A stretch of DNA of 15,213 bases from Lachnospiraceae bacterium (GTDB lineage: Bacteria > Bacillota > Clostridia > Lachnospirales > Lachnospiraceae): positions 1-15,213 of the forward strand of contig JAFSWJ010000099.1 in the NCBI GenBank assembly GCA_017444545.1, given 5' to 3'. Position 1 is the first letter of the stretch; each line of letters starts with the position of its first letter. Shown here in pieces: positions 5,033 to 14,773 of this stretch. Below the pieces are notes generated by a model that worked only from the letters and a program-made list of their open reading frames with translations, ran no database searches and was not told the DNA's origin. The translations under genes and the position numbers were made by a program.

Positions 5033-6031
5033 TTACCATGCAGCCCTTAAGTTTGCAAGCTCAGCCTGCTGTCCCGCGTTTGGCATCAGCTCGCTTGTGG
5101 CATTATAGAGTATGTATCCGCTGTAGCCCAAAGATGCCGCCTTCTGAGCCTGGAGAGCCAGGTTGTTGTTTGCCCGCATCCAGCCGGGATCACCTGCAAC
5201 CGGGCTTCCGCACCTGTACAGAGCCATACCCACATACATCGGTATACCGATCTTGTTGAGTCCCCTCCACTGTGCCAGTCTCTGCGAAGACATGGCCACA
5301 TTCGCACCAGCTCCGTAATTATCGGTCCAGTAGATCTGGGGTGCGATGTAATCAATATATCCCGGAACCGAGAGCCAGGTTGCCACATCTGCTCCCATCC
5401 TGAGGTTATTCTCCACATTTCCCTGGGGAGCGATGCCAAAGACCTTTCCGTTTGCGGCACATACCTGATGGACCTGTGCGATCATGCTGTTCAGATTTGC
5501 CGCACCAAGAGGCGGGAAATAATCATCAAAATGAATCCCGTCCACAGGATATTTCGTCACTATCTCTGCCACACCCGCTACGATATTGGCATTGTTTGCA
5601 AGAGCAGCATTTCCTGCATATGCTCCGTTTCTGAACCCGTAGGGATTGATCCATGCATGAAATTTCAGTCCCGATGCATGGGCGATCTGTACCATATCGG
5701 CCAGAGGATCAAACCCCGGGTTTGCTCCGTTCAGCATCTGTGTGCTCCACGGATATATATTTGAAGGATAGATCGCATCGTTGTGGGACCGCACATGGAC
5801 AAATACCGCATTGCCGCCGTTTGCCGCAACTGTCGCGCATATCGTCTGAAAACTCTGGTCAAAGGCACCCTGCGGCTTTCCCCGAAGCATCGTCTGTATG
5901 TCAAGGAATGACACCCAGGTTCCCTTCACCGCCGCTGCTGCCGATACCTCTTTTGTCTGCATCTGCGATGCTCCCATGAAAACAAACACTGCCGCAAGGA
6001 GCATTGCCGTGATCTTTCTGATACTCTTCAT
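5033..6031 (-). CDS. Secreted glycosyl-hydrolase-like 10 (GHL10/YngK, DUF187) family protein
   Basis: A 332-residue exported protein. Residues 1-32 form a signal peptide (Lys/Arg start, hydrophobic core, AxA-like cleavage in VSAAAA). The rest is one TIM-barrel domain of the glycosyl-hydrolase-like 10 family (PF02638). Its typical strands are visible: KGTWVSF (36-42), HVRSHNDA (79-86), GLKFHAWINPY (121-131), VDGIHFDDYF (163-172) and YIDYIAPQIYW (225-235). The Asp pair in HFDDYF and the conserved His/Asn in HAWINP are candidate active-site residues. The family is thought to act on cell-wall or other polysaccharides, but the substrate here is unknown. No cell-wall binding domain is present. The gene follows the lipoprotein gene by 23 nt with an AAAGGA ribosome binding site, so it is in the amidase operon. 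Confidence 0.88.
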   Translation of the reverse strand: MKSIRKITAMLLAAVFVFMGASQMQTKEVSAAAAVKGTWVSFLDIQTMLRGKPQGAFDQSFQTICATVAANGGNAVFVHVRSHNDAIYPSNIYPWSTQMLNGANPGFDPLADMVQIAHASGLKFHAWINPYGFRNGAYAGNAALANNANIVAGVAEIVTKYPVDGIHFDDYFPPLGAANLNSMIAQVHQVCAANGKVFGIAPQGNVENNLRMGADVATWLSVPGYIDYIAPQIYWTDNYGAGANVAMSSQRLAQWRGLNKIGIPMYVGMALYRCGSPVAGDPGWMRANNNLALQAQKAASLGYSGYILYNATSELMPNAGQQAELANLRAAW

Positions 6032-6054: not shown

Positions 6055-6681
6055 TTATTCGCTTTTGTATTCTCCGGAGATACCCAAATCTCCATCTTCG
6101 GTCACCTGCAAAACGCCGGTTTCCGCCATCTTAAAGCCGATACTTTCTTTTTTGTCCTCCGACTCCCATGCCGCCCCGTCCTTTTCTATGAAGGCAACAC
6201 CTGTAAGCACTTTCCGGTCCTTTTCATAAACCGTAAACTCAAATGATGAATCATCGGCAGGAAGCAGCTCCACGCTCACATCTCCCTTTGAGAACCTGCC
6301 GTCCCAGCTGATATCCCTGAACCTGCTCTCCGTCTTTTCATAATAAGGAAACTCCGAAAAATCGGAGACTCCTTTTTTCAAAGGATCATATACCTTTACC
6401 TCGCCGGAAAAGCCGTCAACTGCAAGGATCATGTCCATCACCTTTCCCTCAGGGTCAGTTACAGTATATGTATAATAACCGCTTTCGTCAATCTCGATAC
6501 TGTCCCTGTAATCCGCTTTGCAGCCGCTTCCGTCAAGCACTTCTGTCAGGAGATTGTCGGCATCTTCTTTTTTTATTATAAAGACCGGAACCTCCTCTTT
6601 TTCCTGCTTTGTACATCCAAAGTTCAATACTGTGCACAGGGCAAGGAGGATGAGGATCCCCCCTTTTTTCAGTCTCATCAT
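6055..6681 (-). CDS. Small predicted lipoprotein of unknown function
   Basis: A 208-residue protein with a basic start, a hydrophobic stretch (about 7-19) and Cys23 in LNFGC. This is a slightly off-consensus lipobox (Asn and Phe at -3 and -2), consistent with lipid anchoring on the outer face of the membrane. The mature part is acidic with alternating beta-like segments; GYYTYTVTDPEGKVMDMILA (about 68-87) followed by FSGEVKVYD resembles PepSY/YpeB-type repeats only loosely, and I do not assign a domain. The first ATG overlaps the amidase stop codon by 4 nt (ATGA), and a second ATG follows immediately; AGGGG lies 6 nt upstream. Translational coupling to the amidase and the short gap to the GHL10 gene suggest a helper role at the cell wall. 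Confidence 0.75.
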   Translation of the reverse strand: MMRLKKGGILILLALCTVLNFGCTKQEKEEVPVFIIKKEDADNLLTEVLDGSGCKADYRDSIEIDESGYYTYTVTDPEGKVMDMILAVDGFSGEVKVYDPLKKGVSDFSEFPYYEKTESRFRDISWDGRFSKGDVSVELLPADDSSFEFTVYEKDRKVLTGVAFIEKDGAAWESEDKKESIGFKMAETGVLQVTEDGDLGISGEYKSE

Positions 6682-9600
6682 TTATATCCCCTGCTTTCAA
6701 GCACGGCATCCGCTATGGCTCTTCCTGCAGCCTCCCTCATGTCGCCATTATTAAGCTTGCTGTAGTCTCCGTCTATGAAGGCAACCTCGACTATCATTCC
6801 CGTTATCTTGTTTGCGGCAGATCCTCTGATGACACCGTAATAATCTCCGTTGCTTCCGGTCCTGGTCTTCACTCCGCGGCTTTCCGTGCCGATGGCAGCC
6901 GTGACCTTGCTCAGGATCCTGTTTGCCAGGGCATCGTCATGATATTCGGTTATGGATTTCCACACCTCGGTACCGTGACCTCCTCCGGAGTTGCAATGGA
7001 TCGAGATGAAGAGGTTGCAGCCGTTTGAATATGCGATGTTCGGCCTGTCTCCAACGGTCAGATAGGTATCATCATATCTTGTCATGACTACGGGAACATT
7101 GTATTTTTCAAGCTCGGCCTTCATGGCATTTGCCATGGCAAGATTGCAGGTCTTTTCCAAAAGTCCGTTATTTGTTGCACCGCTGTCGCTTCCTCCGTGT
7201 CCGGCATCTATGCAGACCTTGAGCTTTCCGTCACCCGTACCGATGGGATTAACCTTGATGAGGGCATGATTGCTTATGATGGAGCTTCCGCTGATGCTTA
7301 TCCTGCCCGTTGCCTGGACATACACTTCCTTGTTCCACTTTGACATGGCCGTCTTTCCCTTCACCTTTGAGCCCTCAAGAGTAAAGTATTTCTGGCCGGG
7401 CGCTGTCCAGACCACATCCTTTAACGTCGTGCTCTTTGGCAGGAAGGAGATCGGTACCTCCTTTGTCTGTCCCACGGTCACCTCGGTATTTGTAAGTTTT
7501 ATCTTGTAAGGCGTGATGTAGGTCACCTTTTTCGGCACACCGAGGATGAATCCGTCCTTTTCCGGACCTCTGCCGTATTTCTTTGTGGTCGCGCTTTGAT
7601 AAACAGGTGTTACCACATAGACCACCTTGTCACCGTGATAGAAGGGCAGGTTCTTTGTCTGCTTGTTCCTGAAGCCCTTGTAGGATACATACTTCCCGTC
7701 CTTTTTGCTGTTATCAAGCCTCTTTTTTGCCTCCTCCTTTGTAAAAAGCACCACCGATGAACTGCAGTTCTTTTCAAAGGAATCCTCCGTATTTGTCTTG
7801 TATTTGTATACCTTTCTTTCAACCATATAACCCAAAGGCGTACTCTGGCTGAAATCAGCGGAGTGATCCCAGGTGAGAAATCCGTCCGGATAATAGGTAT
7901 ATCCGTTGTCTACTGCCACCCGGTTTAACTGTGCCTTCAGATTCTTTACGCCGGTGGGTCTTCCGGAATCGGTCTTTTGAGCGACAAGTCCCCACTCACC
8001 GGAGGAAAAATAGGAGTCCTTCCTGAATGCGCACACCTCAAATCTGTAGGGCTTTCCCACCAGATCCATATCGGTCTTGCCCTTTTTGGGATCAAGGCTT
8101 CCTCCCGTGCCTCCTCTCCAGGTATGCTTTCCGGGCTTTTTGAATACTTTTTCGGCTACCAGCGCGTCATGGTTTTCCACATCATATACACGCAGCATGT
8201 ACTTTGTGGCGCCCTTGACCTCCTGCCAGGATACATATACCTCATCCATATCCTTCGGCGCGGTGCTCAGCTTCGGAGCTCCCACCTTTGTAGTGGCCAC
8301 GGCCTTCTTCGGATCAGCCGACACATGCCTCTTTCCGTTTTTGGGCTCGGCATAGAACTCATAGGTGTAACCGTGCTTCAGCCCTGTTATGCCAAATTTG
8401 GTTATCGGATCCTTGTTGCTGTCCCTTTTAATGGTAAAGACCTTTCTTTTCCAGGTTGAATCCTTGTTTGAATTTTCCGAGAGCACCGTTCCCGTATGGG
8501 TCTTTGTCGCCCTGTAGGTTATGACCATCTCCTTTGCTCCGGTCACAAAATCGGTGTTCACAGTAACCTTGTTGTAATTATCCACGTTTGCCGAGATCGA
8601 GGTGACATCGCCCATCTGCGGCTTTACGCATACGGACTCACCCGCAAATCCCGTAACCTTGTCAAGTACGACTCTTACCTTGAAATAGTAGTTCTTCTCC
8701 GGTGCCAGACCCTTTACCAGATAGATATACGTAGGATAAGGAGCCTTGTATTTAACCCCGTTCAAGCTGATTTCCCTGTTTGCCGCAACCTTTGTGAGAT
8801 TTGTTACCTCATCTGCATCCAGATCCTTCCCCGTAACCGTTGCAACCACCTTGAAACCTCCCGTGGGAGATGTGGACTGAAGGATCTCGTATTTGTTTTT
8901 GCTGTATTTTTTCGCACTTCCGGTGGGTATGATATCCTCCGAAAGGGCTTCAAAGGCGATGGCTGCGCGGTCAAATCTGGGAGTACCTGCTGATACTACA
9001 TAGGGTGCATAGAACCTGAGCTTTGACTTCACAACGTTTGATACCGCAGACTTCAGCTCCTTTCTTTCAGGGAGCACCGATCCGTCCTCGGCAAAATCCA
9101 CAACCTCCGTCTTCACGTAAGCCCTGTAATGGTAAGTGTCTCCCGCGTCGAGGGACCTGTCCGTTATAAATACTCCCTCTGCAGGTATGACACTTCCCTT
9201 CTTTACCGGTTCTCCGTTATTTTTATATGTAAGCGGAGATGCAAGCTTTGATCCGTAATAATCAAAGTTATCTATCTGATCTGCGGAAACACTGATCACA
9301 GCATCATCAAAATCGTTCTTTTTGCCCGTCAGCGATCTTTCGATGACGTAGGTCTCGGTTCCCCTGATCTTTGAGAACCTGAAATCCATGCTGTTCCTGT
9401 CATGCTGAAGCATGGTCAGACCAAGTCCCATGGGCTGGCATACACCGTAGGAAGGTTCCTTTGCCATTCCGTATTTCGTGTCGCTGTCATAGCCTATGAC
9501 ATTTACCTTGTAGATATAGGTGCTTATATCCTCTCTTCCGGCCTCTTTGTCCACAAACTTCGTTCCGGTCTGACCGAACTTTATGTCAGACTCCTTATCC

Positions 9601-11102
9601 GCCGCTTTTGATTTGTTTGCACCATTGAGCAGGATCCAGTCCTCGTTTACATCATCATACCTGTAGATCATGTATCTGGCCTGATCCATCTTTTTTTCGG
9701 AGGAGCTTTTTTTTCTGTCCTTTTTCTCCTTATTTTTGTAGGTCCTTGCAGCCTTCCATGTGATGGTGACAAATCCCTTGGCGTTTTGCTTCACCGAAGA
9801 GATCACGGGAGCCGTCAGACCGTTTGACGTCCATTCATGTTCCTTCTTTATTATCGTGATGTTTCCCGAAACAAGCCTGACCGAAGCAAAATTTCCCGCC
9901 TTATTATTTGATACGCCATAGATCCTTTTCTTTCCTTCTTCGTTCAGTTCAAACCTGTTCTGGCTGGCGGTCACCGTATCCCCCGAGATCAGGCTTGACT
10001 TATCCCAGTTAAAGCAGGTGGCATCAAGCGCCAGGTTTTTTGACAGAGTGTTCACATCCGCGCCGTCGGCCTCGATGGTAAAGCCCTCCCTTTCAGCCTG
10101 GGTGACAGCCTTCCTGTCAAAATTCTTTCTGAAATCCTTTGACCTGATGACGAGATTGGTTGAAAGCACTGTCAGCTTTCCTGCAGAAACATTTTTTATC
10201 TCATAGTTTCCCGCTATCGCCGACACATCGACATTTATGCCGGATTCTCCCGCGCTGTTTTGGCTTCCCGAAACCTTTATGAGATCCATATCATTCCCGT
10301 ACAGCGTCTTTCCGTCAATCTCATACAGATCCTTTGCATCAGCCACAAGACTGCTTCCGTCATAATATTTCGTCTTTCCGTTTATTGAAAGGGATATTGG
10401 TCCCGCCTTGTTGACGCTTAGGAAAACAACCGCATTGGCACTTACCTTACCGTTCTTTTCCGCATTTACGGAAACGGCATATCTTCCGGCATTTACGGCG
10501 CTGTTATCACTAATCTCAAATTCCTTAGCCGTCGTAGAAACTGCGAGACCGTTTTTTGATATCCCGCTCCCGCTTCGAAAGTCCGCTTCACTGTATTGTG
10601 ACGGTTCAGTCTTTCCGTCATTCGCACTTATCATCCAGGCCGTAAAGGTATACCCTTCCGCCCTGTTCGCACTGATATAAACACCGTGGCTTTTCCCGTC
10701 ATACGATACCGTATCTGCGCTGACAAAAAGCTTTATATCATCACCCGCACCCGCGCTCTCCTCAGCCTCAGCCTCCGGCGCCTCTTTTTCAGGCACCTCC
10801 AGGTCCGCAGATACGGAATCAGGTACTTCCTTTTCGGGATCTGCGTTTTCAGCCGGCTTTTCATCCGAAGGCTCCGGTGTCTCTGCCAAAGGCTCACCGG
10901 CCTCTTCTGCCGGATCTGCGGCATTTTCGCTTTCCTTTGCAGCAGGCTGCGTCTCTTCACCCGACGGCGGCTGCGTCATATTTTCGGATACCGGTGCAGG
11001 GTTATCCGTTATCTCATCCGCAAGCGCCGAAACATTCGATCCGAAGACCATCGAAAGCGCAAGCACCATAGCCAAAACCGATCTGATTCTTTTTCTTCTC
11101 AT
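6678..11102 (-). CDS. Secreted multi-domain N-acetylmuramoyl-L-alanine amidase
   Basis: A 1474-residue exported peptidoglycan hydrolase. Residues 1-28 are a signal peptide (cleavage after ALA). Residues 30-120 are a Pro/Glu/Ala-rich acidic linker. Residues 124-420 look like two or three MBG/YDG-type beta modules (for example VSYDGKS at 132-138 and KYYDGSS at 245-251). Residues 428-1190 hold about seven divergent fibronectin-type-III-like modules. Residues 1195-1285 resemble a Big-type Ig domain. Residues 1295-1474 are an Amidase_3 domain that cleaves the MurNAc-L-Ala bond. Its zinc ligands are His1302 (DAGHGG), Glu1316 (LLEKT) and His1369 (SIHCN), and the catalytic Glu is Glu1439 (VEVAF), so it should be active. 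AAGGAG lies 8 nt before the ATG. No LPXTG or SLH anchor is seen. It heads an operon with the lipoprotein and GHL10 genes. Confidence 0.92.
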   Translation of the reverse strand: MRRKRIRSVLAMVLALSMVFGSNVSALADEITDNPAPVSENMTQPPSGEETQPAAKESENAADPAEEAGEPLAETPEPSDEKPAENADPEKEVPDSVSADLEVPEKEAPEAEAEESAGAGDDIKLFVSADTVSYDGKSHGVYISANRAEGYTFTAWMISANDGKTEPSQYSEADFRSGSGISKNGLAVSTTAKEFEISDNSAVNAGRYAVSVNAEKNGKVSANAVVFLSVNKAGPISLSINGKTKYYDGSSLVADAKDLYEIDGKTLYGNDMDLIKVSGSQNSAGESGINVDVSAIAGNYEIKNVSAGKLTVLSTNLVIRSKDFRKNFDRKAVTQAEREGFTIEADGADVNTLSKNLALDATCFNWDKSSLISGDTVTASQNRFELNEEGKKRIYGVSNNKAGNFASVRLVSGNITIIKKEHEWTSNGLTAPVISSVKQNAKGFVTITWKAARTYKNKEKKDRKKSSSEKKMDQARYMIYRYDDVNEDWILLNGANKSKAADKESDIKFGQTGTKFVDKEAGREDISTYIYKVNVIGYDSDTKYGMAKEPSYGVCQPMGLGLTMLQHDRNSMDFRFSKIRGTETYVIERSLTGKKNDFDDAVISVSADQIDNFDYYGSKLASPLTYKNNGEPVKKGSVIPAEGVFITDRSLDAGDTYHYRAYVKTEVVDFAEDGSVLPERKELKSAVSNVVKSKLRFYAPYVVSAGTPRFDRAAIAFEALSEDIIPTGSAKKYSKNKYEILQSTSPTGGFKVVATVTGKDLDADEVTNLTKVAANREISLNGVKYKAPYPTYIYLVKGLAPEKNYYFKVRVVLDKVTGFAGESVCVKPQMGDVTSISANVDNYNKVTVNTDFVTGAKEMVITYRATKTHTGTVLSENSNKDSTWKRKVFTIKRDSNKDPITKFGITGLKHGYTYEFYAEPKNGKRHVSADPKKAVATTKVGAPKLSTAPKDMDEVYVSWQEVKGATKYMLRVYDVENHDALVAEKVFKKPGKHTWRGGTGGSLDPKKGKTDMDLVGKPYRFEVCAFRKDSYFSSGEWGLVAQKTDSGRPTGVKNLKAQLNRVAVDNGYTYYPDGFLTWDHSADFSQSTPLGYMVERKVYKYKTNTEDSFEKNCSSSVVLFTKEEAKKRLDNSKKDGKYVSYKGFRNKQTKNLPFYHGDKVVYVVTPVYQSATTKKYGRGPEKDGFILGVPKKVTYITPYKIKLTNTEVTVGQTKEVPISFLPKSTTLKDVVWTAPGQKYFTLEGSKVKGKTAMSKWNKEVYVQATGRISISGSSIISNHALIKVNPIGTGDGKLKVCIDAGHGGSDSGATNNGLLEKTCNLAMANAMKAELEKYNVPVVMTRYDDTYLTVGDRPNIAYSNGCNLFISIHCNSGGGHGTEVWKSITEYHDDALANRILSKVTAAIGTESRGVKTRTGSNGDYYGVIRGSAANKITGMIVEVAFIDGDYSKLNNGDMREAAGRAIADAVLESRGYK

Positions 11103-11430: not shown

Positions 11431-12795
11431 ATGGATTATGATGTGATCATTATAGGCGCCGGTCCCGGCGGGATATTTGCCGCATATGAACTGACAAAAA
11501 ACGACCCCTCCCTGAAGGTAGCGGTTTTCGAGGCCGGTCATGCTCTCGAGGACAGGAAATGCCCCATAGACGGAGTGAAGGTCAAAAACTGCATCCACTG
11601 CAAAAGCTGTTCCATCATGAGCGGCTTCGGCGGTGCCGGTGCTTTTTCCGACGGAAAATACAATATCACAAACGACTTCGGCGGAACCCTCCATGAGCAC
11701 ATAGGAAAGGATGAAGCGGTAAAGCTCATGGAATATGTGGATACCATCAATCTGGCAAACGGCGGTGAGGGTACGAAGCTGTATTCCACCACAAATACCG
11801 AACTGAAAAAGATGTGTCTGCAAAACAAGCTCCAGCTCCTTGATGCATCAGTCAGGCATCTGGGAACCGACATCAATTATATCGTCCTCAAAAATCTTTA
11901 CGAAAAGCTGAAGGAAAAAGCCTCGTTTTTCTTTATGACTCCCGTTGAGAGCATCGAAAAGACAGAAGGCGGCTTTCTCATAAAAACACAGACCGGTAAA
12001 TATGAATGCGAAAAGTGCATAGTCTCTGCCGGAAGGATAGGCAGCAAATGGATGGAGGAAACCTGCAAAAGCCTTGATATCCCCACAAAATCAAACAGAG
12101 TGGACATCGGCGTCAGGGTGGAGCTTCCTGCGGTACTTTTTGCCCATCTGACAGATGAGCTCTATGAAAGCAAGATAGTATACCGTACGGAAAAGTTTGA
12201 GGACAGGGTCAGGACCTTTTGCATGAACCCCTACGGCAGCGTCGTTACCGAAAACACAAACGGTATAGTCACCGTCAACGGCCACAGCTTTGACGATCCG
12301 GAAAAGAGGACAAAAAACACGAACTTTGCCCTGCTTGTTGCAAAGCACTTTTCAGAGCCGTTCAAGGACAGCAACGGGTATGGAGAAAGCATCGCCAGAC
12401 TTTCAAACATGCTTGGGGGAGGCGTCATAGTCCAGCGTTTCGGAGATATCATCAGAGGCAGGAGGAGTACCGCAAAAAGGATCAGTGAAAACTTTGTCAC
12501 TCCCACCCTTCAGGCTGAACCCGGAGATTTAAGCCTTGTTCTCCCCAAGAGGATCATGGACGGCATACTCGAGATGATCTATGCTCTCGACAAGATCGCT
12601 CCCGGAACCGCAAACGACGATACCCTTCTCTACGGTGTCGAGGTCAAATTCTACAACATGGAGGTTGAGGTAAACGAAGATCTCGAAACCGCCTACATGG
12701 GTCTCTACATCATCGGTGACGGAAGCGGAGTGACACACTCCCTTTCACACGCCTCCGCAAGCGGTGTTTATGTGGCCCGAAAGATCCTCGCGTGA
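11431..12795 (+). CDS. FAD-dependent dehydrogenase (COG2509 type)
   Basis: A 454-residue cytoplasmic flavoprotein. The N-terminus carries the dinucleotide-binding fingerprint IIIGAGPGG (6-14) followed by an acidic residue at the end of the second strand (FEAG, 33-36). A GGAGAFSDGK block lies at 67-76 and the C-terminal FAD-binding segment IGDGSGVTHSLSHASASG is near 427-444. This pattern fits the uncharacterised FAD-dependent dehydrogenases of COG2509; substrate and acceptor are unknown. Four cysteines (Cys44, Cys54, Cys57, Cys60; spacing C-x9-C-x2-C-x2-C) sit just before the GGAGAFSDG motif and could bind metal or take part in thiol redox chemistry. It has its own promoter. The next gene is 397 nt away, separated by the structured element at 12800-13123. 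Confidence 0.88.
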   Translation: MDYDVIIIGAGPGGIFAAYELTKNDPSLKVAVFEAGHALEDRKCPIDGVKVKNCIHCKSCSIMSGFGGAGAFSDGKYNITNDFGGTLHEHIGKDEAVKLMEYVDTINLANGGEGTKLYSTTNTELKKMCLQNKLQLLDASVRHLGTDINYIVLKNLYEKLKEKASFFFMTPVESIEKTEGGFLIKTQTGKYECEKCIVSAGRIGSKWMEETCKSLDIPTKSNRVDIGVRVELPAVLFAHLTDELYESKIVYRTEKFEDRVRTFCMNPYGSVVTENTNGIVTVNGHSFDDPEKRTKNTNFALLVAKHFSEPFKDSNGYGESIARLSNMLGGGVIVQRFGDIIRGRRSTAKRISENFVTPTLQAEPGDLSLVLPKRIMDGILEMIYALDKIAPGTANDDTLLYGVEVKFYNMEVEVNEDLETAYMGLYIIGDGSGVTHSLSHASASGVYVARKILA

Positions 12796-12871
12796 GATTA
12801 TTCACAGCCAATGCCATTGGTTGAGCAATCGGAACAGTTGATGCGCGAGCAGGGGCGCTGAATGTCCAGTG

Positions 12872-12897
12872 CAAAATATGCCCTTTGGCATATTTTG
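12872..12897. repeat. Perfect 11-bp hairpin inside the element
   Basis: CAAAATATGCC and GGCATATTTTG flank a CTTT loop. It lies about 77 nt after the FAD dehydrogenase stop. No T-run follows, so a terminator role is doubtful, although the arm itself ends in T residues. Confidence 0.85.
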
Positions 12898-12906
12898 AAT
12901 GCCGGT

Positions 12907-12927
12907 TAGATGCGCCAAGCGCATCTA
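12907..12927. repeat. Perfect 9-bp hairpin inside the element
   Basis: TAGATGCGC and GCGCATCTA flank a CAA loop, 9 nt after the previous hairpin. Confidence 0.85.
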
Positions 12928-12950
12928 GCATCGGTACATTCGTTTAGCGC

Positions 12951-12970
12951 CGACCGAAGCGGAGCGTAGA
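12951..12970 (+). repeat. Direct repeat copy 1 (GGAGCG module)
   Basis: CGACCGAAGCGGAGCGTAGA; 19 of 20 bases are shared with copy 2 at 13045-13064. A shorter CCGGAGCG piece also occurs at 12990-12997. Confidence 0.85.
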
Positions 12971-13010
12971 ACCCCGTGCCGAGCACCTACCGGAGCGCAA
13001 GGTACGGGAG

Positions 13011-13045
13011 GACGCATACCGTCCAGTGGACGGTAGTTTTGCGTC
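13011..13045. repeat. Two-part hairpin inside the element
   Basis: GACGCA (13011-13016) pairs with TGCGTC (13040-13045), and inside it TACCGTC (13017-13023) pairs with GACGGTA (13029-13035) around a CAGTG loop. A GTTT bulge lies on the 3' side. Confidence 0.8.
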
Positions 13046-13064
13046 GACCGGAGCGGAGCGTAGA
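13045..13064 (+). repeat. Direct repeat copy 2 (GGAGCG module)
   Basis: CGACCGGAGCGGAGCGTAGA; differs from copy 1 at one base. Confidence 0.85.
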
Positions 13065-13128
13065 CCCTGCGGGAGCAAGAGCCAAAGATTGATATGCTCA
13101 AGTCAATAACATTGGCTGTGAATGCCAA

Positions 13129-13157
13129 CTGACAAAAACCGCAAGCCGTGATACAAT
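13129..13157 (+). promoter_or_regulatory. Promoter of the clpX-like operon
   Basis: CTGACA (13129-13134), a 17-bp spacer and TACAAT (13152-13157) each match the sigma-A consensus at five of six bases. The start would be near 13164. The promoter begins only 5 bp after the end of the 324-bp element. Confidence 0.8.
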
Positions 13158-13172
13158 GAAAAATATTTTTCA
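13157..13172. promoter_or_regulatory. 16-bp palindrome over the clpX transcription start
   Basis: TGAAAAATATTTTTCA is a perfect palindrome that begins in the last base of the -10 box and covers the predicted start site. This is where a repressor operator would sit. It is also A/T-rich, so chance symmetry is possible. Confidence 0.45.
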
Positions 13173-13192
13173 AGCGATATGAAAGGTTAAAC

Positions 13193-14773
13193 ATGCCTGA
13201 TAATACAAACGATCAAAATAAAAAAACCGAATACTGCTCGATCTGCAGGAGAAGCGACAGCGACGCAGGCAGCATGTTCCACCTGCCCGGCGGCATCAAT
13301 ATGTGCAGTGACTGCATGAGAACATCACTGGAATCCATGTCCCGCTTTGGCTTTGCGGACCCTTTTAATACCCAGGCAAAGGCTGCGGTACAGCCAAAAG
13401 AGCAGGAAAAGACCAATGGTCCGGAAGGTGAAAAAACGGTAATAAAGGAAAAGGCCGCTGCTGAGGATATCAGCGTTGAGGAAACCGTTCCTGATGAAAA
13501 CCCTGAAGAGGAAACACAGGAAGAGGAGACACAGGGAAATCCCGGTGCCGGATTTTTCGGCATCCCCAACATCCAGTTCCTCAATCTGTCGGATTTTGGA
13601 AGCCTCGGACTTGGCGCTCCAAAGCCAAAGGCAAAAAAGAAGGATCCCGATGCCCTGAAAAAACAGTTTGATCTGACAAAGATCCCAAAGCCGCACAGGA
13701 TCAGGGAAATGCTCGATGAATACGTGATCGGACAGGATCATGCAAAAAAGGTCATTTCCGTTGCGGTCTACAATCATTACAAGAGGGTAAACGCCGATCT
13801 TTCCGATACAAACAAAAAAGAGATCGAAAAATCAAATATACTGATGATCGGACCCACAGGCTGCGGAAAGACCTATCTGGTACAGACCCTTGCAAAACTT
13901 CTTGATGTACCTCTTGCCATAGCGGATGCCACTTCCCTGACGGAAGCAGGCTACATCGGAGATGATATAGAATCAGTAGTCAGCAAGCTCCTGACCGCCG
14001 CAGGAAATGATGTGGAGAGGGCCGAATGCGGTATCATCTTCATAGACGAGATAGACAAGCTTGCCAGAAAAAAGAATGCCACCACACGCGATGTGAGCGG
14101 CGAAAGCGTCCAGCAGGGTATGCTCAAGCTTCTCGAGGGTTCCGTCATTGAGGTTCCCGTAGGGGCAAACAGCAAAAATGCCATGGTCCCCATGGCAAAG
14201 ATAAATACAAAGAACATCCTGTTCATCTGTGGAGGAGCCTTCCCGGATCTCGACGAGATCATAAAGCAGAGACTTCGAAAGGAGACCTCCATAGGCTTCA
14301 ACGCGGAGCTGAAGGACAAGTGGGACAAGGAAAAGAACATCCTGCAAAAGGTTACGGTAGAGGACATCAAAACCTTTGGCATGATCCCCGAATTCGTCGG
14401 CAGGATGCCCATCATCTGCTCTCTCGAGGGACTGAATGAGGATGCCCTTGTCAGGATCCTCAAAGAGCCCAAAAATGCCATCACGAAACAGTACGAGGCA
14501 TTGCTTGAGATGGATGAGGTAAAGCTTGAATTTACGGACGAGGCTCTTCATCTGATCGCAAAAAAGGCCCTGGAAAAAGAAACCGGAGCCAGAGCCCTTC
14601 GTGCAGTCATAGAGGAATTCATGCTTGACATCATGTATGAGGTCCCGAAGGATGAAAACATAGGAAGGGTCATCATCACAGATGAATTTGTAGAGGGCAG
14701 GGGAGGTCCCGGCATCGAGATGAGGAGCGGCTCACAGGATTCCGTTCCGAGGATCGGATATGCGAACGGTTGA
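13193..14773 (+). CDS. clpX: ClpX-like AAA+ unfoldase with long acidic linker
   Basis: ClpX unfolds substrates and passes them to ClpP. This 526-residue protein is about 100 residues longer than usual. It has an N-terminal zinc finger (Cys15, Cys18, Cys38, Cys41), then an acidic, Glu/Pro-rich linker (about 60-155), then the AAA+ core: Walker A GPTGCGKT (220-227), pore loop GYIG (253-256), Walker B IIFIDE (281-286), box VII GR (403-404) and sensor-2 GARALR (465-470). The ClpP-docking tripeptide IGF is kept (367-369). The RKH substrate loop of canonical ClpX is absent; that stretch reads VPVGANSKNAMVP (321-333). No clpP or trigger-factor gene is adjacent. It may therefore be a second, specialised ClpX of Clostridia. 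AAAGG lies 6 nt before the ATG. The 3' end overlaps the next gene by 14 nt. Confidence 0.9.
   Translation: MPDNTNDQNKKTEYCSICRRSDSDAGSMFHLPGGINMCSDCMRTSLESMSRFGFADPFNTQAKAAVQPKEQEKTNGPEGEKTVIKEKAAAEDISVEETVPDENPEEETQEEETQGNPGAGFFGIPNIQFLNLSDFGSLGLGAPKPKAKKKDPDALKKQFDLTKIPKPHRIREMLDEYVIGQDHAKKVISVAVYNHYKRVNADLSDTNKKEIEKSNILMIGPTGCGKTYLVQTLAKLLDVPLAIADATSLTEAGYIGDDIESVVSKLLTAAGNDVERAECGIIFIDEIDKLARKKNATTRDVSGESVQQGMLKLLEGSVIEVPVGANSKNAMVPMAKINTKNILFICGGAFPDLDEIIKQRLRKETSIGFNAELKDKWDKEKNILQKVTVEDIKTFGMIPEFVGRMPIICSLEGLNEDALVRILKEPKNAITKQYEALLEMDEVKLEFTDEALHLIAKKALEKETGARALRAVIEEFMLDIMYEVPKDENIGRVIITDEFVEGRGGPGIEMRSGSQDSVPRIGYANG

Follow-up and report, generated by a model that had tools for sequence, protein, structure and literature searches.

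A 324-bp palindromic repeat beside clpX in a Lachnospiraceae genome: a probable composite mobile element with IS4-like ends and nested hairpins

The clpX locus and the parts of the palindrome

The window, that is the whole stretch of 15,213 nucleotides that was analysed, is contig C344 of a 1.71-Mb draft assembly of a Lachnospiraceae bacterium (381 contigs, 66% complete). A non-coding, self-pairing palindrome of 324 bp (12800-13123) fills the gap between the gene for a FAD-dependent protein (11431-12795) and clpX (13193-14773, identified by its domains). The FAD-protein ORF ends 4 nt before the palindrome, where the preliminary description had counted 5 nt from the stop codon. The promoter that it placed 5 bp after the palindrome was located at that distance as a promoter-like CTGACA-17-TACAAT (13129..13157, plus strand), upstream of clpX and outside the element. 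Any effect of the element on clpX is probably incidental, because this promoter-like sequence lies just outside it. The sole ORF of at least 80 aa that overlaps the palindrome is antisense and 89 aa long (12925-13194), in agreement with the earlier view that the element has no real-looking coding capacity. Elsewhere in the window, the minus strand encodes a 1,474-aa protein whose C-terminal domain is Amidase_3 (6678-11102) near a GHL10 protein (5033-6031).

The outermost 14 bases at each end of the palindrome, read from the sequence, are perfect inverted repeats. The repeat tool reported arms of 20 nt that are 90% complementary with 284 nt between them, and a 32-nt direct repeat inside the palindrome at 88% identity (12942-12973 and 13036-13067). 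Folding gave -84 kcal/mol as DNA (z -8.99) and -154.9 as RNA (z -9.45), and both values beat all 100 dinucleotide-preserving shuffles. The preliminary description of a palindrome with perfect 14-bp ends, a direct repeat and stable hairpins thus held (fold z about -9). No Rfam family reached its gathering score anywhere in the window, and inspection of the flanks by eye revealed no target duplication beside the window copy, as had also been noted previously.

From the outside in, the element consists of IS4-like ends, a 68-bp core, two 55-nt modules and, within the loop of the first module, a double hairpin of 64 nt. Outermost of all lie two palindromic arms that pair with each other, ATTCACAGC (12800..12808) and GCTGTGAAT (13115..13123), as seen in the sequence and with the repeat tool. 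Arms nearly identical to ATTCACAGC flank the C230 copy on both sides and the C366 copy on one side. These outermost arms may be a palindrome that served as target, or they may extend the ends. A repeated target palindrome with ATTCACAGC arms was considered and set aside, as the own genome holds no empty TCACAGCC(0-30)GGCTGTGA.

The terminal inverted repeats are IS4-subgroup-like and decayed, with CAATGCCATTGGTTGAGC on the left (12809..12826, plus strand; the commonest form elsewhere is CAATGTCATTAAGTTAAGC) and GCTCAAGTCAATAACATTG on the right (13096..13114, plus strand). Between them is the core unit, CGCGAGCAGG...CCTGCGGGAGC (12844..13076, plus strand), which measures 233 bp here and 68 bp in module-free copies. 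Within the core, also on the plus strand, are module copy 1 of a 55-nt hairpin-plus-tail unit (12854..12971, 60.2 bits), the central hairpin of the core, CCCCGTGCCGAGCACCTACCGGAGCGCAAGGTACGGGAG (12972..13010, from sequence, core comparison and RNA fold), and the intact module copy 2 (13011..13065, 75.9 bits). The apical loop of module copy 1 is split by the 64-nt double-hairpin insert (12870..12933, plus strand, edges to within a few bases). According to the predicted fold and the comparison with emptier cores, the modules occupy junctions between helices of the core, and the 64-nt unit occupies a loop. The same double hairpin occurs at other places, for example in C320, C324, C43 and C14; in the last two (L014 and L015 of G000) it is held by another composite palindrome of about 200 bp with CATGAG..CTCATG ends.

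Dispersed copies, empty sites and the IS4-like ends

The palindrome matched its own genome in 46 aligned pieces on 30 contigs, with the window counted and some copies represented by several pieces; the list of copies was drawn from searches and from individual stretches of the 66%-complete draft. Matches were obtained in 28 of the 61 genomes searched, all 28 from the same genus (28/37 same-genus genomes with the own genome included, and 0/24 from other families), and repeats of the window element recur in Lachnospiraceae records.

At the junction of the FAD-protein gene and clpX, the element is absent in the three closest relatives by FAD protein, namely G026 (95% identity), G012 (93%) and G029 (92%), in all of which clpX starts within about 150 bases of the FAD-protein gene. 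The empty site of G026 retains the promoter-like sequence as ATGACA-17-TACAAT (by eye). Eight further relatives (L064-L066, L068-L072) were uninformative, with no clpX start within 400-620 bases downstream. A second copy sits between ruvA and ruvB (gene identities by eye). The corresponding junction in G012, identified by a 97% identical RuvB stretch, is a few bases long and free of the element, and three other relatives (L341-L343) have no element there either.

A search for dispersed copies with empty orthologous sites had been proposed in the preliminary description as a way of telling a mobile repeat from a structured RNA present once per genome. It was run and found both, and the palindrome is read as a mobile repeat because of these many dispersed copies and empty sites; the single-copy RNA reading was not supported, dispersed copies being found instead. 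The element is short and non-coding with terminal inverted repeats, its copies are dispersed, and sites differ in being occupied or empty, as in a MITE. A structured ncRNA or cis-regulatory element for clpX, with its fold under selection, would suit the very stable fold and the compensatory changes in the module stems described below, but it is highly improbable given the empty orthologous site in three close relatives, the related pieces on 30 own-genome contigs, the lack of an Rfam match at gathering score and a location outside the leader, on the upstream side of the promoter-like sequence of clpX; the stems of mobile DNA hairpins would covary too. Chance build-up of palindromes, the accidental alternative that had been allowed for at the outset, has practically no probability in view of the 46 aligned pieces in the own genome, the covarying module stems, the module in 71 of 150 genomes and the fold z of about -9.

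The source of the outer ends was sought in intact insertion sequences. Ends resembling CAATGTCATTAAGTTAAGC with at most 2 mismatches were present in 10 of 41 genomes, and the backwards control gave none. The IS-like end form AATGTCATTWAGTTAAGR was found exactly in 30 of 299 Lachnospiraceae genomes, the own genome not included because its ends carry C at the last place. Genome G251 contains five IS copies of 1,625-1,626 bp bounded by CAATGTCATTAAGTTAAG ends. All five carry CAATGTCATTAAGTTAAGGA at both ends, which fits -AATR--------WTW---- (a pattern of this kind had been used to find them), and all five have target duplications of 10-11 bp (by eye). The one copy that was translated has a 443-aa ORF scoring 84.3 bits with DDE_Tnp_1 and 167.2 bits with NF033592 (IS4) against a cut-off of 115, and Y(2)R(3)E(6)K was read from the translation as YHMRWGIETAFDQLK. 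De Palmenaer et al. 2008 (PMC2266710) describe subgroup IS4 by the motif Y(2)R(3)E(6)K, ends -AATR--------WTW----, duplications of 10-13 bp and lengths of 1400-1650 bp. Judged by these sequence features, the intact G251 IS, as distinct from the window element, fits the IS4 family, subgroup IS4. Another IS with such ends, in G346, codes for a 434-aa IS4-family protein.

The ends of other copies match the G251 IS, and the window's own ends are decayed, missing the published IS4-subgroup consensus at one of seven fixed places per side (PMC2266710). Compared with subgroup IS4 as set out in the same source, the window element has no transposase, decayed ends and a nested-hairpin interior. Copy L165, from another genome, has a 10-bp duplication, GTCCCACGAG. 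Within the own genome, inspection by eye showed no duplication at the remaining copies that have IS4-like ends. A search of the own genome (66%-complete draft) with the G251 transposase produced no match, and the same query gave two weak partial matches among 37 genomes. The IS4 family search matched 11 of the 37 genomes, with one match over the cut-off (G012:C52), around which no such ends were found; the own genome had one match, below the cut-off.

All five G251 copies lie inside palindromes, for example GGGGACGGGGTT-TTTTCAAAAA-AACCCCGTCCCC (by eye). A precedent for IS4-family insertion in REPs is ISRm22 of Sinorhizobium meliloti (Tobes and Pareja 2006, PMC1525189), whose copies in REP palindromes parallel the G251 copies in REP-like palindromes. 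ISRm22 differs in being a full IS from another phylum, and the available text of that report describes no nested non-coding derivative.

The best explanation, with a probability of about 0.72, is a composite non-autonomous mobile repeat (MITE), in which an IS4-like outer unit was moved in trans and nested hairpins lie inside. A DDE transposase of IS4 type, acting in trans, would most likely have placed the outer shell at the window site. The MIC231 and IS231 cassettes of Bacillus cereus have IS4-family ends without a transposase, are moved in trans and carry genes. The window element resembles them in its transposase-less IS4-family ends and, unlike them, has hairpins as cargo and not genes.

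IS4-like ends were also observed around or beside other sequences. In L227 (G052:C3, about 62999-64264) they bound a 1,266-bp cassette in which no transposase was seen and a 284-aa ORF resembles aldo/keto reductase (by eye), a layout like that of a mobile insertion cassette. In G005 (L243, L248, L253) and G018 (L234, L256) they lie beside other hairpin repeats, of the TTGTCATCCTGAGCG and CTTCCCCCATTGGGGGAAGG types. The IS4-like shell seems to hold differing contents in different species.

The 55-nt module and its spread

The exact pattern of the module tail was found in at least 117 stretches; most of 80 titles were Lachnospiraceae or their genera, with exceptions among the matches listed such as Neglectibacter. 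Modules were cut from 80 of these stretches, giving 77 distinct segments, of which 75 passed a loose stem test. The flank-preference and helix tests used 62 modules (at most one outer-stem mismatch and enough flank), and the alignment used 58 of usual length. The model was limited to 30 longer-type modules, since the 52- and 54-nt types could not be brought into register at the inner stem in an alignment of 55 rows. Rows were chosen by the outer stem, and the inner stem alone is independent of that choice. In 30 of the best 58 modules, the 14-pair structure had 97.6% of 420 cells paired, with two-sided changes in 71 cells over 9 pairs, and pairing fell to 27.9-45.0% in slid-partner controls. 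The near invariance of the tail stems from the query, which required it.

Covariance model R1 detected at least 373 module copies in at least 71 of 150 Lachnospiraceae genomes (70 of 149 sampled genera). Copies per genome reached at least 28, and the own genome contained at least 27; no more than 38 candidates were scored in any genome. In the window the model R1 recovers both modules and shows the 64-nt insert in the loop of one of them.

Several modules lie in sequences that resemble known genes. In L120 and L131 a module breaks the T arm of a tRNA-Glu-like gene, which in L131 has an intact tRNA-Glu next to it, and L115 has a module in a tRNA-Gly 3' fragment (all by eye); at these three loci ARAGORN called other, intact genes only. 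In L111 a single module lies in a frame that reads like an integrase (by eye). Of 62 modules, 58 are preceded by G or C and 43 are followed by C. Single cases were found of a module inside a module loop (L112) and of a module in the loop of the core's central hairpin (L109). Head-to-tail tandem modules occur in L134 and L141 with a spacing of 51 and 53 bp. A GGATTGCGGGAGCACGCAGTGCGGAGCAATCC-like hairpin, more or less altered, adjoins the module in L119, L124, L145, L146, L154 and L175, and in L117 the module lies inside such a hairpin.

Tentatively, the 55-nt module may be an independent gene-less mobile unit that some enzyme has spread across the Lachnospiraceae without target duplication; the joined sites would then have G or C before the module and often CC after it. 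If that proved true, units entering one another would build ever larger branched palindromes stepwise, with the intermediates kept in one genome.

Insertion into hairpin loops as a general rule for the module was not upheld in three tests. Pairing between left and right flanks of 74 modules averaged -13.3 kcal/mol, and flanks taken from different modules averaged -12.6 kcal/mol (permutation p 0.028). Uninterrupted helices of at least 7 near the junction were found in 3 of 62 modules against 0.49 expected (p 0.016), and helix cut-offs of 5, 6 and at least 8 gave p 0.22, 0.14 and 0.14. When the flanks were joined, for 58 of 75 modules, the junction fell in a predicted hairpin loop at 0.07 against a surrounding mean of 0.16, the lowest of 80, and the unpaired probability at the junction was slightly low (0.36 against 0.40 around it).

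The module is a small hairpin with GTAG near its 3' end, and a partial Y1_Tnp gene lies at an own-genome contig end; both would accord with a REP/BIME-type repeat, the module being the REP and a Y1 (RAYT/TnpA-REP) transposase its mobiliser. This origin is nevertheless improbable. Y1_Tnp was found in 43 of 71 genomes with the module and in 45 of 79 without it (Fisher p 0.74), both searches having been run with the same settings on the same 150 genomes and each naming only some of the genomes that gave no match, so Y1/RAYT was rejected as the module's mobiliser on the grounds that presence of the two is unrelated. Moreover, 6 of 18 genomes with at least 8 module matches had no Y1_Tnp match, and the own-genome Y1 gene is adjoined by a different repeat (by eye). 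That partial gene (L059, end of G000:C265, 1459-1701) has GGGACAGGGGACGTATCTGTCCC-type repeats just upstream, and the two are probably a RAYT/REP pair of another family. No candidate enzyme gene was recognised between close module pairs among the ORFs of L325, one of ten such stretches.

The size ladder of cores and its meaning

Twenty related cores were recovered with the ends CGCGAGC...GGGAGC, the core finder requiring both end motifs with at most one mismatch and a chance match (L205) being excluded from the 20. By length they comprised 68 bp (7 cores), 118-120 bp (10), 170-171 bp (2) and 233 bp (1, the window), and by location 16 were in the own genome, 3 in G026 and 1 in L165 (a rumen MAG contig). 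In order of length, the cores contain no module, one module, two modules, and two modules plus the 64-nt insert. Outside the 20, with altered or cut ends, were C28 (L009), the contig-cut L100 and the G012 copy L109.

Cores were found without IS4-like ends (C379 and the three G026 copies; C49 has at most one, decayed), and IS4-like ends were found with little inside at C342 (56 bp in all) and at C377 (81 bp). The 81-bp form retains the left 11 bases of the core and may for that reason be a deletion and not a precursor; other small forms could likewise be deletion products instead of precursors. Several cores (C232, C253, C230) keep TTAAGC and have different outer arms, which is unexplained by transposition of one shell.

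From the size ladder we infer an order of assembly. A 68-bp folded core inside IS4-like ends would have taken up two 55-nt modules, each at a different inter-helix junction, and the 64-nt double hairpin would then have entered the loop of one of these modules. The core and the modules would join by a route other than the shell's transposase. An account without transposition of the inner units, in which hairpins are swapped by template switching or gene conversion between stem-sharing repeats, is on the whole unlikely. Different module types were found at one and the same core position, modules occur in tandem, and small base changes exist at some junctions (the 64-nt insert in module 1, the module in tRNA-like sequence), all of which it would explain, but lone modules lie in unrelated sequence such as the tRNA-like genes and the integrase-like frame of L111 (by eye), and core lengths step by whole units. 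Allomyces double-hairpin elements are tiny mobile mitochondrial hairpins. Yeast mitochondrial GC clusters are also tiny mobile hairpins, whose merging and shuffling are discussed (PMC4478555). By description, both resemble the window element as tiny mobile hairpins, and both are mitochondrial.

Mutual insertion of modular MITE-like repeats is already known from Streptococcus pneumoniae, where BOX, RUP and SPRITE are short, folded, often intergenic and inserted into one another, and BOX is modular with optional middle units and grows by tandem boxB units (PMC3049150). Compared by description, the window element is like them in its short folded modular repeats and mutual insertion. Unlike BOX as portrayed there, it has different families nested at helix junctions and in a loop, and each nested family also occurs elsewhere, alone or in another setting. 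Among the titles and abstract openings listed in searches of open-access literature (subscription papers and preprints excluded), none describes the element, the 55-nt module or the nested-hairpin ladder.

Large bacterial palindromes are usually treated as single units. The ladder suggests that this one was put together out of smaller mobile hairpins; forms of every lower size are still present, which makes the order of assembly testable. The 55-nt module, with its pairing conserved, is common in a major family of gut bacteria, and the search for its mobiliser is a concrete task. The case also shows an IS4-type shell enclosing nested hairpin structures.
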